Shown here piece by piece: positions 56,595 through 62,654 of a stretch of 64,000 nt of DNA. The translations under genes were made by a program, and so were the position numbers. This DNA comes from Rhodothermales bacterium (GTDB lineage: Bacteria > Bacteroidota > Rhodothermia > Rhodothermales > JANQRZ01), in assembly GCA_039944855.1 (NCBI GenBank), contig JBDUXZ010000005.1, forward strand, positions 186,001 through 250,000, written 5' to 3'. How positions within the stretch are numbered: position 1 is the stretch's first letter; the number at the start of each line of letters is the position of its first letter. The notes below the pieces were generated by a model, which had not been told where the DNA came from, did no database searches, and was given only the letters and a program-made list of their open reading frames with translations.

Positions 56595-57869
56595 TCAGAG
56601 CGCGGCGACGGGCAGTTCCTCCCACCGCGTCGTGTAGGCCGGCGAGACGAGCCCACGCCGCATCGCCCACGCCTGCTCGGTCCCGCAGCGCCCGAACGTG
56701 ACGGCTCCGCGTCCGTGCTTCCGGTTGACGGCGTCGACGGCGGCCATCAGCGCCTCATCTTCCGGGCGGTACGGGAGGAAGAGGTGGCCCTGCGCGGGGT
56801 TCGCGGGCGTGAGGTGAGCGAGAATGACGCCGGCTTTGTAGTACGCCCGGCCCGGCTCGTGCAATCGGTCGAGGCAGCGGAGCGCGGCTTTGAGCAGGGT
56901 CGGCGTGTGGTTCGAGGCGGGGAGCGAGACGGCGCAGGCTCCGGCGCGGTCGCGCCCGCCTTCCGGGGCACGACGGCTCGCGCTCGCCGAGGCCCCCGCG
57001 CAGAGGAACACCTGCAGCGCTCCGGCAGCGAGGCCTGCCGCGCGCAGCTTCTCCGCCGCCCGCGCCGTGTGCGTCGCCACGGCCTCCTCCAGCTCGCGCC
57101 GCTCCGTCACCGTCCGCCCGAACGACCGGCTCCGCGTCACACTCTGCCGCGGCGGCGGCGCCTCTTCGAGCGGGAGGCACGGGACGCCGCGCAGCTCCCA
57201 CACCGTCCGCAGCCCGACGACGCGGAGCGTCTTCCGCGCCCACACGTCCGGCACGTCGCGGAGGTGGCGCGCCGTGCGGACGCCGTGCGCCTCCAGCACC
57301 GGCCCCGTCCGCTTCCCCACGCCCCACACGTCGCGCACCGGGACCCGCTCCAAGAGGGCGTCGAGGTCGGAGCGGCCGACGAGCGAGAACACGGGCGTCC
57401 CGTCCTGCTTGCTCAGCCGTCCCGCCACCTTGCACAGCGTCTTCGTCGGCCCCACGCCGACGCGGACGGGGATGCCGGTCCAGCGCAGCACGCGGGCGTG
57501 GAGCTCCCGCGCGAGGTCGAGCACGGCGTCGGGCCGGAGGTCGGGCAGGCCGACGAACGCCTCGTCGATGGAGTAGACCTCCACGTCGGGTGTGAGCGTG
57601 CGGAGCGTCTCCATCACGCGGTGACTCATGTCGGCGTAGAGCGCGTAGTTACTCGAAAAGACACGGACGCCGGCTCGCGCGAAGGCCCGTCGGTGCTGGA
57701 AATACGGCGCGCCCATCGGCACGCCCATCGCCTTCACCTCCTCGCTTCGGGCGATCACGCAGCCGTCGTTGTTCGAGAGCACGACGACGGGCACGCCGCG
57801 CAGCGACGGCGCGAAGACGCGCTCGCACGAGACGTAGAAGTTGGCGCAGTCGACGAGGGCGAAGGGCAT
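56595..57869 (-). CDS. umuC: Y-family DNA polymerase UmuC
   Basis: A 424-residue translesion DNA polymerase V catalytic subunit. The palm motifs [17 protein letters not shown] (Asp7) and [11 protein letters not shown] (Asp102, Glu103) give the metal-binding acids. [27 protein letters not shown] is the UmuC signature. The HhH region ([23 protein letters not shown]) and the little-finger domain with a C-terminal tail are present. Length is normal. The ATG at 57869 starts the conserved sequence. umuD is 108 bases upstream on the same strand. No clear LexA box was found in the gap. Confidence 0.95.
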
Positions 57870-57977
57870 CGGGAACGGGGAAGGCGAGCCCGTTCATACC
57901 TCCCCGCTGGTGACGCCTTCTCTGTCACCCTCCACCCGGCCCTCGCCGCGACGCACGCTTCGGAGCCCCTGCGCGCG

Positions 57978-58427
57978 CTATTTGCAGGCGTGGACGACGT
58001 GCGTGACGACGCCCCAGATCACGAGCTCCTGCTCGCCCTCGACCGGGATCGGCGGGTAGAGATCGTTCTCGGAGACGAGGCAGACCCGCCCGTCGCGGAT
58101 GCGGATGCGCTTCACGGCTAGCTCTCCGTCGAGCACGGCCACGACGATCTTCCCGTCGCACGGCTCCACGGCGCGGTCCACGACCAGGATGTCGCCGTCG
58201 GTGATGTTCGCCCCCGTCATCGAGTCGCCTTCGACACGGACGAAGAACGTCGCAGCCGGGTGCTTCACGACGAGGTCGTTAAGGTCCAGCGTGCAATCGA
58301 CGTGGTCGTCGGCGGGCGAGGCGAAGCCGGCGGGGACGCGCGTGAGCAGCAGCGGGAGCGGGAGCGGCGGGCCGGGCGCGTACGGGATGACGTCGGCGGC
58401 GCGGAGGCCGAAGGGGCGGAGTTCCAT
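57978..58427 (-). CDS. umuD: UmuD-type S24 peptidase
   Basis: A 149-residue LexA/UmuD-family protein, which cleaves itself and then joins UmuC to form polymerase V. The cleavage site fits Ala33-Gly34 (RVPAGFASPADDHVD). The catalytic Ser is Ser69 (VRVEGDSMTGANI) and the Lys is Lys106 (GELAVKRIRI). There is no DNA-binding domain. The ATG at 58427 gives the usual MELRPF-type start; an ATG 27 bases upstream (MRPLTASPL) is also possible. It lies 86 bases after the B12-domain regulator on the same strand. Confidence 0.93.
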   Translation of the reverse strand: MELRPFGLRAADVIPYAPGPPLPLPLLLTRVPAGFASPADDHVDCTLDLNDLVVKHPAATFFVRVEGDSMTGANITDGDILVVDRAVEPCDGKIVVAVLDGELAVKRIRIRDGRVCLVSENDLYPPIPVEGEQELVIWGVVTHVVHACK

Positions 58428-58513: not shown

Positions 58514-59503
58514 CTACGCCGCCCGGCGCTCGGCCATGATCTGCTCGGCCAGCGCGTTCAGCGCCAGCATCGACGGCAGCACGGTCAGCCCCGGAAGCGC
58601 GTCCGCCTTCGCCTCCCGCCCGCCCACCACGAAGCGCGCACCCGCCGCATTCAGTTCGGTCGCGAGCGCGGCGCTCGCGCGGCGGAGTTCCTCGTCCGGC
58701 GGGCTCGCCGACACGGAGAGCCACACGAGGTCAGCCCGGCGGCGGCGTGCCGCATCGGCGAGCACGTCGATCGGGGTATTGGGGCCTAGGTTCGTAACGT
58801 CGAACCCGAGGTCTTCGAGCACGGCCGCGGCCATCAGCGAGGGGACGGTGTAGGGGTCCCCTTCGAACGCGCCGCCCACGGCGACGGGCGCACCGTCCGG
58901 CGCGAGGGGCCGCAGCGTCCGGATCTGGTGGAGGATCTGCACGAACACGTCGACCGCCTCGTGCTCGATCCCGATGCCCGACGGGTCGACGCCGCCGCCG
59001 CCGTTCTCCCAGAGCATCCCCGCGTGGTGGAGCGCGCCCCGGAGCGGCCCGTCGCAGAGCGACGCGAGCGACGCGCCCCCTACGTACGCCGCCACGACGA
59101 GCGCACGCGCCCGCGCCGCCTCGCCCGCCACGAGCGCCTCGATGAGCCCCTCCGCCGTCACCGGCGCGGCCTCGATGTCCGGCAGCCCGACGAGTTCCGG
59201 CAGCCGGAGCGCCGCCGGATCGACGACGTGGAGGGCGCGCTCACGGATGAACCGGACGGCCTCCCGTTGTGAGACGCGCCGGTGCCCCCCCGCCGTCCGC
59301 GCCGCCTCGAGCTCCCCCGCGTCGATCCACCGCTTCATCGACGACTCGCTCACGCCGACGGCCGTGGCGAGCTCGCGTGGGGAAAAGGTGTGTTCACGCG
59401 CCGAGAGATGCGGGGAGGTCGAAGACAAGATTTTGGGGAGAATGAGAGACGGAGGGAGCGGGCAGGAACCAAACGGCAGCGCATCGCTTTTGTGGGAGGG
59501 CAA
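58514..59503 (-). CDS. MerR-type regulator with cobalamin-binding-like domain (CarH/LitR relative)
   Basis: A 329-residue regulator related to the light- and B12-sensing CarH/LitR proteins. A MerR-like HTH covers about 40-90 (FSPRELATAVGVSESSMKRWIDAGELEAARTAGGHRRVS). The B12-binding-2 helical domain (about 115-200) has Trp165 and Glu180-His181, the WxnEH capping motif with a longer spacer than usual. The Rossmann-like B12 domain (about 205-329) has GPNTP and VVGG motifs. The expected cobalt-ligating His of the ExHxxG motif is replaced: GDPYTVP puts Tyr218 there. This suggests a sensor that does not bind B12 in the usual way or does not need it. The start is uncertain; an in-frame TTG near 59427 would remove the poorly conserved first 25 residues. 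It is divergent from the fasciclin-SDR-photolyase genes. Confidence 0.82.
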   Translation of the reverse strand: MPSHKSDALPFGSCPLPPSLILPKILSSTSPHLSAREHTFSPRELATAVGVSESSMKRWIDAGELEAARTAGGHRRVSQREAVRFIRERALHVVDPAALRLPELVGLPDIEAAPVTAEGLIEALVAGEAARARALVVAAYVGGASLASLCDGPLRGALHHAGMLWENGGGGVDPSGIGIEHEAVDVFVQILHQIRTLRPLAPDGAPVAVGGAFEGDPYTVPSLMAAAVLEDLGFDVTNLGPNTPIDVLADAARRRRADLVWLSVSASPPDEELRRASAALATELNAAGARFVVGGREAKADALPGLTVLPSMLALNALAEQIMAERRAA

Positions 59504-59549
59504 AACGGACGCCGCCGCCGTGCGGATTCGAAGCGCTGGCCGTCACGTG

Positions 59550-59564
59550 AACGTTTTGCACGTT
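59550..59564. promoter_or_regulatory. Inverted-repeat operator candidate AACGT-N5-ACGTT
   Basis: AACGT (59550-59554), five bases, ACGTT (59560-59564) form a perfect 5-5-5 inverted repeat in the divergent promoter region. It overlaps the likely -35 element of the fasciclin gene, which suits a MerR-type repressor. That it is bound by the neighbouring regulator is inference. Confidence 0.45.
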
Positions 59565-59660: not shown

Positions 59661-60248
59661 ATGTTGTACACGCGCTTATTCACCCTGCTCTGCCTGTTCT
59701 CCCTCGTCGCCTTCGTCGGCTGCGCCGATACCGAGGCGCCGGAAGTCGACGCCGAGATGGGCGAGGAGGAGATGATGGAAGAGACGATGGAGATGAACAA
59801 CTCCATCCTTACCGTTGCCGAGGACGCCGGGCTGACCACGTTCCGCACCGCCGTCGCCCAGGCCAACCTCGACGAGACGCTCAACGGCCCCGGCCCGTTC
59901 ACCGTCTTCGCCCCGAGCGATGAGGCCTTCAACGCCCTGCCCGAAGGCACGCTCGAGTCGCTGATGGAGGAGGGCATGCGGAGCAAGCTCACCGACATCC
60001 TCACCTACCACGTCATCCCCAGCCAGGTGATGTCGGGCGAGCTCAGCGGCCAGATGACGGTGAACACCGTCCAGGGCCAGGCCCTCACGATCAACGCCGA
60101 AGGCGGCACCGTCACCCTGACCGACGCGATGGGTAACACGGCCACGGTCGTCTCGGCCGACAACGAGGCCGGCAACGGCGTCATCCACGTCATCAGCGGC
60201 GTCCTCATGCCCGCCGAAGGCGACATGACGGAAGAAGACGCGATGTAA
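59661..60248 (+). CDS. Fasciclin (FAS1) domain lipoprotein
   Basis: A 195-residue lipoprotein with signal MLYTRLFTLLCLFSLVAFVG and Cys21 (FVGCAD), a very acidic Met/Glu-rich linker (about 28-45), then one FAS1 domain (about 48-187): ILTVAEDAGLTTFRTAVAQANL, GPFTVFAPSDEAFNALP, LTDILTYHVIP and NGVIHVISGVLMP. FAS1 lipoproteins are often found in bacterial light- or oxidative-stress gene sets, where they are thought to act in adhesion or envelope protection. It has the best ribosome-binding site in the window and a strong terminator. The SDR gene follows after the terminator. Confidence 0.92.
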   Translation: MLYTRLFTLLCLFSLVAFVGCADTEAPEVDAEMGEEEMMEETMEMNNSILTVAEDAGLTTFRTAVAQANLDETLNGPGPFTVFAPSDEAFNALPEGTLESLMEEGMRSKLTDILTYHVIPSQVMSGELSGQMTVNTVQGQALTINAEGGTVTLTDAMGNTATVVSADNEAGNGVIHVISGVLMPAEGDMTEEDAM

Positions 60249-60375: not shown

Positions 60376-61119
60376 ATGCCTGTCTACCTCATCCTCGGTG
60401 CTTCCGGCGGCATCGGCACCGCCCTCACCCACCGCCTCGCCGCCGACGGCGCCGACCTCGTGCTCGGCGCACGCAATGAAGCCCCGCTCCGCGCCCTCGC
60501 CGACGAGGTCGGCGCCACGGCGCACCCGCTCGACGCGACCTCGTACGAGGCGGTGCAGGGCATCGTCGACGCCGCCGTCGAGCAGCACGGCCGCATCGAC
60601 GGCGCCGTGAACCTTGTCGGGTCGATCCTGCTCAAGCCTGCCCACCTCACGAGCGTGGACGAGTTCGACACGGCGATCTCGCTCAACCTCAACACGGCGT
60701 TCTACCTCGTGAAGGCTGCCGCCCGCGCGATGCAGACGAACAAGGAGCCGGAGGGCGGCGCGATCGTGCTCATGTCGTCGGTGGCGGCGCGCCTCGGCCT
60801 CGCCAACCACGAGGCGATTGCGGCGGCGAAGGGCGGCGTATCCGGCCTCACGCTCGCGGCGGCGGCGAGCTACGCCCCGCGCAAGATCCGCGTCAACGCG
60901 ATCGCCCCCGGCCTCGTCCGCACCCCCCTCACCGAGCGGCTTACGAGCAGCGACGCCGCCGTCGACGCCTCGGCGAAGATGCACGCCCTCGGGCGGATCG
61001 GCGAGCCCGATGACCTCGTAGACGCCCTGCACTTCTTGCTCGACAGCAGCCGGAGCGGCTGGGTCACCGGGCAGACGCTGTCGGTGGACGGCGGCTTCGC
61101 GACGGTGCGGCCCCGCTAA
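60376..61119 (+). CDS. SDR-family protein lacking the catalytic tyrosine
   Basis: A 247-residue protein with the short-chain dehydrogenase fold. The cofactor motif GASGGIG (8-14) and NLVGS in the NNAG position are present, as is the conserved Ser (MSSVAAR, about 134-135). In the YxxxK motif the Lys is kept (Lys152), but the Tyr position is Ile148 (NHEAIAAAKGG). Without the Tyr it may be catalytically weak, use another mechanism, or be a binding protein. C-terminal NAIAPGLVRTPLT and SVDGGF blocks are standard. It stands 86 bases before the photolyase gene and is probably co-transcribed with it. Confidence 0.85.
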   Translation: MPVYLILGASGGIGTALTHRLAADGADLVLGARNEAPLRALADEVGATAHPLDATSYEAVQGIVDAAVEQHGRIDGAVNLVGSILLKPAHLTSVDEFDTAISLNLNTAFYLVKAAARAMQTNKEPEGGAIVLMSSVAARLGLANHEAIAAAKGGVSGLTLAAAASYAPRKIRVNAIAPGLVRTPLTERLTSSDAAVDASAKMHALGRIGEPDDLVDALHFLLDSSRSGWVTGQTLSVDGGFATVRPR

Positions 61120-61205: not shown

Positions 61206-62654
61206 ATGCCCGGTCCCACGCTCGTCTGGTTCCACCGCGACCTCCGCCTCGCCGACCACCCGGCGCTCACGCGCGCCGTGGAGCGCGGGGAGCCCGTGGT
61301 CCCCGTGTTCATCTGGTCGCCGGAGGAAGAGGGCGATTGGCCGCCCGGCGGCGCGCACCGGTGGTGGCTCCACCGCTCGCTCGAAGCCCTCGCCGAGAGC
61401 CTCGACCGGAAGACCTCGCGGCTCGTCCTCCGCACCGGCTCCAGCCTCGACGCGCTCCGCAGATTGATCGATGCGACGGGCGCCGACGCCGTCTACTGGA
61501 ATACGCGCTACACGCCCGCCCGCCGCGAGCGGGACCGTGAGATCGCCGACGCGCTTCGGGAGGACGGCATCGAGGTCAAGACGTTCGCCTCGCGCCTCCT
61601 CCACAACCCCGAATCCGTCCGCACGACGAGCGACGGGCCGTACCACGTCTACACCCCGTTCCGCGCCAAATTCCTCGAAACCGTCGAGATCGGCGAGCCG
61701 CTCGACGTGCCGAGGATGGGGCAGCGGCTCGCGCCTGCGACGTGGCCCGAGAGCACGGATCTCAGCGACCTCGGCCTGCTGCCCGAGGCACAGGACGGCG
61801 TGGACTGGGCCGAGCAGATGGAGGCGGCATGGACGCCCGGCGAGCGCGGCGCCCACGAGCGCCTCCGCACCTTCCTCGGCGACGCCCTCATCGACTACGC
61901 CGACGCCCGCGACCGGCCCGCCGTCGACGGAAGTTCGAAGCTCTCGCCGCACCTCCACTGGGGCGAGATCAGCCCCCGGCAGGTCTGGCACCGCGCCCAG
62001 AACTGGGTCCGCAACGGTGCCATGCGCGACGCCGCCGACGCCTTCCTCAGCGAGATCATCTGGCGCGAGTTCTCCTACCACATCCTCTACCACTACCCGA
62101 CGCTCCCGAGCGAGCCGCTCAAAGACAAGTTCGCCGCCTTCCCGTGGAAGTCCGACGCCGACGCGCTCCACCGCTGGCAGCGCGGCCAGACCGGCTACCC
62201 CATCGTCGACGCCGGGATGCGGCAGCTGTGGGCGCTCGGGTGGATGCACAACCGAGTCCGCATGATCGTCGGCTCGTTCCTCACGAAAGACTTGCTGATC
62301 TCGTGGCAAGAGGGCGAGGCATGGTTCTGGGACACGCTCGTCGACGGCGACCTCGCCAACAACGCGATGAACTGGCAGTGGATCGGCGGGAGCGGGCCGG
62401 ACGCGCAGCCGTTCTTCCGCATCTTCAACCCCGTCAGCCAGGGCGAGAAGCACGACCCCGAGGGCGCCTACGTCCGCCGCTGGGTGCCGGAACTGAGCGA
62501 CCTCCCGAACAAGTACCTCCACCGTCCGTGGGACGCGCCCGCCGACGTGCTCGACGAGGCTGGGATCGTGCTCGGCGACACCTACCCCGAACCCATCGTG
62601 GATCACGCCGCCGCCCGCGACCGCGCCCTCGCGGCGTACAACGAAATCAAGTGA
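61206..62654 (+). CDS. phr: Deoxyribodipyrimidine photolyase (cryptochrome/photolyase family)
   Basis: A 482-residue FAD-dependent photolyase that repairs UV-induced cyclobutane pyrimidine dimers with blue light. The N-terminal antenna-binding domain begins LVWFHRDLRLADHPAL. The FAD-binding catalytic domain has SSKLSPHLHWGEISPRQVWH, LSEIIWREFSYHILYHYP, GYPIVDAGMRQLWALGWMHNRVRMIVGSFLTKDLLISW and DGDLANNAMNWQWIGGSGPDAQPFFRIFNP. The tryptophan electron-transfer chain positions look present. It fits class I CPD photolyase rather than cryptochrome-DASH. Length is normal. Its place beside a CarH-like regulator fits light control. Confidence 0.94.
   Translation: MPGPTLVWFHRDLRLADHPALTRAVERGEPVVPVFIWSPEEEGDWPPGGAHRWWLHRSLEALAESLDRKTSRLVLRTGSSLDALRRLIDATGADAVYWNTRYTPARRERDREIADALREDGIEVKTFASRLLHNPESVRTTSDGPYHVYTPFRAKFLETVEIGEPLDVPRMGQRLAPATWPESTDLSDLGLLPEAQDGVDWAEQMEAAWTPGERGAHERLRTFLGDALIDYADARDRPAVDGSSKLSPHLHWGEISPRQVWHRAQNWVRNGAMRDAADAFLSEIIWREFSYHILYHYPTLPSEPLKDKFAAFPWKSDADALHRWQRGQTGYPIVDAGMRQLWALGWMHNRVRMIVGSFLTKDLLISWQEGEAWFWDTLVDGDLANNAMNWQWIGGSGPDAQPFFRIFNPVSQGEKHDPEGAYVRRWVPELSDLPNKYLHRPWDAPADVLDEAGIVLGDTYPEPIVDHAAARDRALAAYNEIK

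Follow-up and report, generated by a model that had tools for sequence, protein, structure and literature searches.

A clade of B12-domain regulators with tyrosine in place of the cobalt-ligating histidine of CarH

The regulators closest to the one described here hold adenosylcobalamin (AdoCbl) with a histidine as cobalt ligand. In CtMerR of Chloracidobacterium thermophilum (structures 8jbs and 8jbt), this ligand is His204, and both binding and photolysis of AdoCbl have been measured (PMC11796333). In CarH, or class I LitR, of which TtCarH is the example used here, it is His177 of the ExHxxG motif; the TtCarH H177A mutant is reported not to bind B12 (PMC8221060), and the operators are tandem direct repeats of 11 bp, nAnnTnnACAn (PMC8156234). 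Other systems are alike in part. Class II LitR of Pseudomonas (PplR, PmlR) is reported to have the helix bundle only, without a Rossmann B12 domain, and to respond to LOV proteins; the genes induced by light under the LitR proteins of this genus include phrB, ufaM, folE and an SDR gene (PMC9758184). BldC, a protein of 68 residues devoid of a sensor domain, goes with 9-bp direct repeats arranged head to tail, with the consensus AATTXXXX(C) (PMC5859096). The SCHIC domain of AppA shares the fold of the B12-binding regulators but differs in its lower ligand: it carries heme, the histidine being shifted by two residues and the Trp cap lost (PMC9144470), so that this fold is able to change its cofactor.

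The window, by which we mean the whole stretch of 64,000 nucleotides that was analysed, contains a genuine gene for a regulator with the following features. Clade counts refer to the 85-row clade described below.

58514–59503, minus strand: regulator open reading frame P0001, 329 residues with a TTG start; the true start is uncertain, relatives starting near residue 36
59237–59386, minus strand: helix-turn-helix of BldC/MerR type, residues 40–89 (HTH_17, 31.3 bits, above the Pfam cut-off)
59000–59155, minus strand: four-helix bundle, B12-binding_2 (PF02607), residues 117–168 (25.5 bits, cut-off 23)
58601–58882, minus strand: Rossmann B12-binding domain (PF02310), residues 208–301 (43.1 bits, cut-off 32.1)
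59009–59011, minus strand: cap Trp165 of the GxxW element (Trp in 81 of 85 clade members)
58988–59002, minus strand: cap-loop insertion of five residues (168–172), confined to the window protein by sequence comparison
58961–58966, minus strand: cap Glu180-His181 (Glu-His in 85 of 85 clade members)
58850–58852, minus strand: Tyr218 (codon TAC), aligned with the cobalt-ligand histidine
58721–58723, minus strand: Trp261, specific to the clade (83 of 83 filled rows versus 0 of 39 His-type relatives, which have Cys, Ala, Leu, Val or Ile)

P0001 shares with CtMerR the helix-turn-helix head, the four-helix bundle, the Rossmann B12 domain and the GxxW, EH and GxxxP elements, and CtMerR (8jbs) was the nearest solved sequence (E 1.4e-25), with TtCarH behind (1.2e-6). 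An AF2 model built from 75 sequences (pLDDT 89.5, pTM 0.86; most of residues 1–33 below pLDDT 50) matched the CtMerR chain 8jbs_A with a Z score of 22.7 over 217 residues (rmsd 2.8 Å), photocobilin 8j2y with 22.8, CarH with 20.3 at best, and the heme-binding AppA SCHIC domain with 17.2 alone and 17.3 in a longer construct. The modelled structure is thus closest to cobalamin photoreceptors; the absence of a family from the match list was not taken as evidence. The helix-turn-helix part matched the BldC structures 6ama and 6amk. At the sequence level, P0001 missed the NCBIfam HTH_BldC cut-off (33.1 versus 77 bits), stayed below the cut-off of the MerR models (22.1 versus 28.2 bits) and fell far short of the NCBIfam CarH equivalog (34.5 versus 400 bits).

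The initial annotation had called the protein a CarH-like sensor. This stands for the fold, the cap residues and the regulon, but not for the DNA-binding half, which is BldC-like and goes with 9-bp operators, nor for the nearest solved relative, CtMerR, nor for the equivalog score. Because the ligand histidine, this score and the operator period all fail, we do not class P0001 as a CarH. It belongs beside the CtMerR-like B12-domain regulators, as their Tyr-type sister, and its operator is BldC-like; in operation, on this evidence, it resembles a CarH-type photoregulator. Three further PF02310 matches lie in the genome of the window, in open frames of 332, 1299 and 1190 residues. From their lengths, and from reading one of them, these are probably a mutase-type domain, MetH and a mutase; taking them as such, no second B12-domain regulator was found in this genome.

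At the ligand site, phmmer paired Tyr218 without a gap with CtMerR His204 and TtCarH His177 (GDPYTVP against EGDLHEIA and PGERHEIG, respectively), the match to the CarH histidine having been proposed from the sequence at first, and three alignment runs were free of gaps around the site. The distance from the cap histidine to the ligand site is 37 residues in both P0001 and CtMerR. The GxxW, EH and GxxxP elements of the published light signature are all present (G162MLW165, E180H181, G240PNTP244), and the GxxH element reads G215DPY218, the cobalt-ligating histidine of the CarH and class I LitR motif ExHxxG being replaced by tyrosine. A search with the published GxxH signature would therefore miss the entire Tyr family. 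The initial annotation had named another histidine at the cobalt position as the finding that would speak against it. Histidines occur in P0001 at positions 4, 32, 38, 74, 92, 159, 160, 181 and 192 only, the Rossmann part (about 199–329) and indeed all of residues 193–329 having none, so that an alternative histidine on the lower face is absent from this protein. Among 75 Tyr members, no conserved histidine column was found in the Rossmann part, the highest being 18 of 75 at residue 307. The two traits of AppA SCHIC are lacking as well: Trp165 is kept and no histidine lies near residue 218.

The cap residues Trp165 and Glu180-His181 are separated by 14 residues versus 9 in CarH, a difference seen from the outset and due to the five-residue insertion of the window protein. 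Among 82 clade members, 75 have a spacing of 9, one of 8, one of 10 and four of 15, and the window protein has 14; the longer spacing is thus local and minor. A separate, longer insertion in this loop, with a spacing of 15, occurs in L090–L093. At L097, two clade members are adjacent on the same strand, and the cap Trp position holds Trp in one and Tyr in the other. Two residues past the cap Trp (the residue 167 column), histidine is present in 51 of 75 Tyr members and Asn in the window protein; this histidine, one position off from TtCarH His132, is a possible candidate for an upper-face ligand.

Relatives were collected from whole genomes of the same order and phylum, and by a scan using helix-turn-helix patterns only. 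They were recovered by profile scans of genome contigs, a single-protein scan giving none. A relative at E 1e-12 or better was present in 77 of 395 genomes of the phylum; the pattern scan gave 226 relatives, of which the best 80 (79 loci), ranked by likeness to the Tyr protein, were kept. The 125 aligned rows have Tyr (76), His (48) or Phe (1) at the ligand site. A tree was built from 124 rows with the ligand-site column excluded; L035 (the same place as L069) was left out. L079 and L050 duplicate L007 and L021, respectively, and L163 is a stretch of 10 bases of no use.

In this tree, 85 rows form one clade (SH-aLRT 99), with Tyr in 75, His in nine and Phe in one, and all 39 rows outside it have His. 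The clade spans Planctomycetota, Acidobacteriota, Rhodothermota, Verrucomicrobiota and Gemmatimonadota, and includes rows labelled Myxococcota or Binatota. The replacement, which the initial annotation had proposed to survey among orthologues, thus appears from the alignment as a clade-wide trait, wider than first noted, and since tyrosine is conserved at the site across the clade, Tyr218 is not a chance change. At least eight state changes at the ligand site are required by the tree overall. In our own reading, in which many inner branches are weak, Tyr would have arisen once, with five returns to His (L121; L008–L010; L100; L118 with L070 and L081; L132) and one change to Phe. As Tyr to His is a one-base transition, its recurrence may be partly mutational.

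Sampling of the Phycisphaerae, the class of L098, gave a match at E 1e-60 or better in 34 of 198 genomes. At 30 of its 39 places, the ligand site was examined and found to be Tyr (26), Gly (2), His (1) or Phe (1); because this sample was ranked by a mostly Tyr profile, and the main one by likeness to Tyr-type proteins, the Tyr shares in both are upper estimates. No description of tyrosine at the cobalt-ligand site was found in the PubMed Central open subset.

The pocket around the site is kept in some parts and remodelled in others. Within the clade, Gly162 is found in 84 rows, Trp165 in 81 and Glu180 with His181 in all 85; Gly240 and Pro244 of GxxxP (84 of 84 filled rows each) and the GG pair (83 of 83) are equally constant. 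Other positions set the clade apart from the His-type outgroup: Gly210 (85/85 versus 0/39), Asn238 (82/84 versus 0/39), Trp261 (83/83 versus 0/39), Asp216 (85/85 versus 8/39) and Pro221 (81/85 versus 5/39). P0001 differs from CtMerR by Tyr in place of His204, and by the clade-specific Gly210, Asn238 and Trp261 as well. Since the His-type members of the clade retain Trp261 and Asn238 (8 of 8 filled rows each), the remodelled pocket tracks the clade and not the choice between Tyr and His. Trp261 lies two residues ahead of the Ser in the tail-binding motif and, from its position on the strand alone, might fill the pocket of the dimethylbenzimidazole tail. L179 and L180, which have Gly at the ligand site, carry Tyr or Phe instead of Trp261; Phe at the site is found in L119 and L184. 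An ER cap in place of EH is found in 7 of 30 Phycisphaerae sequences (L187, L188 and L190–L194); as the ligand site of these is Tyr, they deviate from the B12 signature twice. Given these Phe, Gly and ER variants, neither ligand nor cap is absolute.

Between the regulator and the genes divergent from it lies a candidate operator:

59548–59564, minus strand: operator, a pair of 9-bp direct repeats, AACGTGCAAAACGTTCA, lying between the regulator and the fasciclin gene divergent from it
59661–60248, plus strand: fasciclin-domain protein, divergent from the regulator, conserved neighbour
60376–61119, plus strand: short-chain dehydrogenase (SDR), conserved neighbour
61206–62654, plus strand: protein of the DNA photolyase/cryptochrome family, conserved neighbour

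In the 400 bases upstream of the helix-turn-helix codon of 80 clade members, CGTNCA (N = T, C or G) occurred head to tail at a spacing of 9 bp in 44 pairs, versus 0.1 expected from shuffled sequences. Further peaks lay at 18 bp (10 pairs) and 27 bp (6 pairs), and no pair was found at 11 bp, the repeat length of CarH operators. In 69 of the 80 upstream regions, the motif AAWCGTTCA AAWCGTTCA scored above the 99th percentile of shuffled sequences; as it was fitted on these same 80 regions, fairer tests are provided by the spacing count and by the scans of the outgroup and of genomes. Upstream of the His-type outgroup proteins, which include those near CtMerR in the tree, the same pair passed this threshold in 13 of 37 cases. 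Like repeats, often with CGTGCA, were seen in the His-type L037, L041, L043, L046, L048, L053, L055, L057, L058 and L061. The 9-bp operator may therefore predate the Tyr clade. At the level of the motif, these repeats are of the AATTXXXX(C)-like BldC type. The LitR/PplR box was also considered; TGTACA was present in 3 of 80 clade upstreams and paired in none, so that the clade operator differs from it.

Three sites in the 4.6-Mb genome of the window agree with AACGTNCANAACGTNCA without mismatch. One is at the regulator itself; the second precedes the likely ATG of crtI, which encodes a phytoene desaturase (TIGR02734, 633.8 bits), by about 76 bp; and the third lies about 25 bp ahead of the likely ATG of a fasciclin-like gene. 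By its likeness to the fasciclin gene of the window, the latter, with the gene following it, is taken as a second fasciclin pair. Up to two mismatches gave 31 sites versus 13 for the reversed control, and only the perfect sites are therefore trusted. In 35 clade genomes, drawn from the 40 (of 79 loci) surveyed for AdoCbl enzymes, up to one mismatch gave 50 sites versus 1 for the reversed pattern. A crtI homologue (E 1e-60 or better) was present in 11 of these 35; an operator lay less than 100 bp upstream of it in two, G434 (L086) and G447 (L102), both Tyr-type, and no site was found within that distance in the other nine.

Around the 79 loci (from the best 80 of 226 relatives, many ending at contig ends), relatives of the window's fasciclin gene were found at 19 loci, of its photolyase gene at 17 and of its SDR gene at 10. 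At least one of the three was present at 37 loci, nearly always divergent from the regulator, and these 37 included four of the six His-type loci. Representatives of other neighbour clusters were GTP cyclohydrolase I, DUF2867/NmrA, DUF1731, amine oxidase, cyclopropane synthase (CMAS), DUF1365, DUF1295, fatty-acid desaturase and DUF4397; these other clusters come from longest-ORF picks, and antisense shadows at G+C-rich loci make their sizes too rough to quote. Same-order relatives, Tyr- and His-type alike, have operator and neighbours in common. The photolyase, SDR, GTP cyclohydrolase I, CMAS and amine oxidase neighbours resemble the published LitR light regulon, class II LitR having photolyase, SDR, folE, furan-fatty-acid/cyclopropane synthase and FAD oxidoreductase genes nearby. 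Regulation of carotenoid and photolyase genes from tandem direct repeats is likewise a trait of CarH.

The reading we favour, to which we give a probability of about one half, is that of a photoprotection-gene repressor relieved by light, which keeps AdoCbl with Tyr, not His, below the cobalt. In the dark, AdoCbl would be held between the four-helix bundle and the Rossmann domain, and the loaded protein would oligomerise head to tail on the 9-bp repeats, repressing its own gene, the divergent fasciclin-SDR-photolyase genes, crtI and the second fasciclin pair. Light would break the Co-C bond beneath the conserved Trp/Glu/His cap, the oligomer would loosen, and the target genes would switch on. 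In contrast to CarH, the lower axial position would be taken by Tyr218, within the clade-wide remodelled pocket, where it might ligate cobalt weakly or keep AdoCbl five-coordinate. Light sensing is suggested by the regulon and by the cap, and AdoCbl is probably made by these bacteria, since an adenosyltransferase is encoded in the genome of the window and in 37 of 40 clade genomes. Against this reading we count the reported H177A result for TtCarH, the possibility that Trp261 fills the tail pocket, the Phe, Gly and ER variants, the one-base step from Tyr to His, and an Asn in the window protein close to where TtCarH has His132. In the literature consulted for this analysis, no clade member was found to have been the subject of a light or B12 experiment.

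Since TtCarH H177A is reported to bind no B12, the clade would have found another hold on cobalamin, dropped it, or changed cofactor. Below or near the cobalt, other cobalamin proteins are reported to have Arg, Trp, Asn-water or Cys (PMC13331322) or Leu (PMC8828468); a search of the former, a review of lower-face residues, gave no mention of tyrosine below cobalt. Mmp10 was considered as a precedent and rejected, its Tyr115 being on an iron-sulfur cluster and Leu322 lying below the cobalt (PMC8828468). The initial annotation had offered B12 bound without the histidine, or another chromophore or ligand. Missing from these options were the most direct competitors: Tyr itself as the residue below the cobalt, and a repressor that works without B12, as class II LitR and CarA do.

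This B12-free repressor would have lost its cofactor, the domain serving as an oligomerisation module and light acting through a partner (LOV protein, cryptochrome/photolyase or singlet oxygen). It is a possibility we regard as rather doubtful. The histidine is required for B12 binding in CarH (PMC8221060), class II LitR runs a similar set (phrB, ufaM, folE) through LOV and without B12 (PMC9758184), and some relatives have Gly or Phe at the site, or ER caps. However, the PF02310 domain is intact at 43.1 bits, where class II LitR is described with the helix bundle only (PMC9758184); the constancy of EH, GG and GxxxP noted above exceeds what an empty module would seem to need; and none of the annotated recurrent neighbour families was a LOV protein.

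We think it unlikely that the protein is a sensor of heme, redox or light whose pocket binds a different tetrapyrrole or flat metal cofactor, most plausibly heme, axially ligated by Tyr or His. Heme is commonly ligated by tyrosine as well as by histidine, and the tail pocket could be closed by Trp261 together with Gly210, two residues that the clade's His-type members retain. The AppA SCHIC domain, matched at Z 17.2, is a precedent for heme in this fold, but its Trp cap is lost (PMC9144470) whereas that of the clade is kept, and the structural scores favour cobalamin photoreceptors. Finally, a misalignment, with another histidine reaching the cobalt from below, is very improbable and already largely refuted: the two-residue shift in AppA tells that shifts occur (PMC9144470), but the three runs were gapless around the site, and neither P0001 nor the 75 Tyr members offer such a histidine in the Rossmann part.

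The chances stand about level that a widespread family of light regulators has moved from a His-ligated AdoCbl to a tyrosine-based lower face, with several switches between Tyr and His and with a regulon still of the CarH type. Its members would be the first B12 photoreceptors in which tyrosine ligates the cobalt, or caps it in a five-coordinate state, or else would hold another tetrapyrrole with the tail pocket filled by Trp261. As the swap is common to a multi-phylum family beside light-protection genes, Tyr-type bacteria may perceive light through B12 anchored in a novel manner, or through something else. B12 binding by CarH depends on the lower ligand, a residue that nature has already substituted here. 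His- and Tyr-types share their operator motif and their neighbours, so that what the lower ligand does in B12 photochemistry is testable with natural pairs. Should the cofactor be something other than B12, the family would make up a light or redox sensor of a class new to bacteria; a Tyr-type CBD would also offer a green-light tool with a different behaviour.

Directly downstream of the regulator and co-oriented with it are umuD (ATG near 58427) and umuC (56595–58427, minus strand). As a conserved part of the system, umuDC was considered and rejected: a umuD or umuC match was present at none of the 79 clade loci, one weak umuD-like match (30 bits) being seen in L161. Locally, umuDC might be read through from the regulator.
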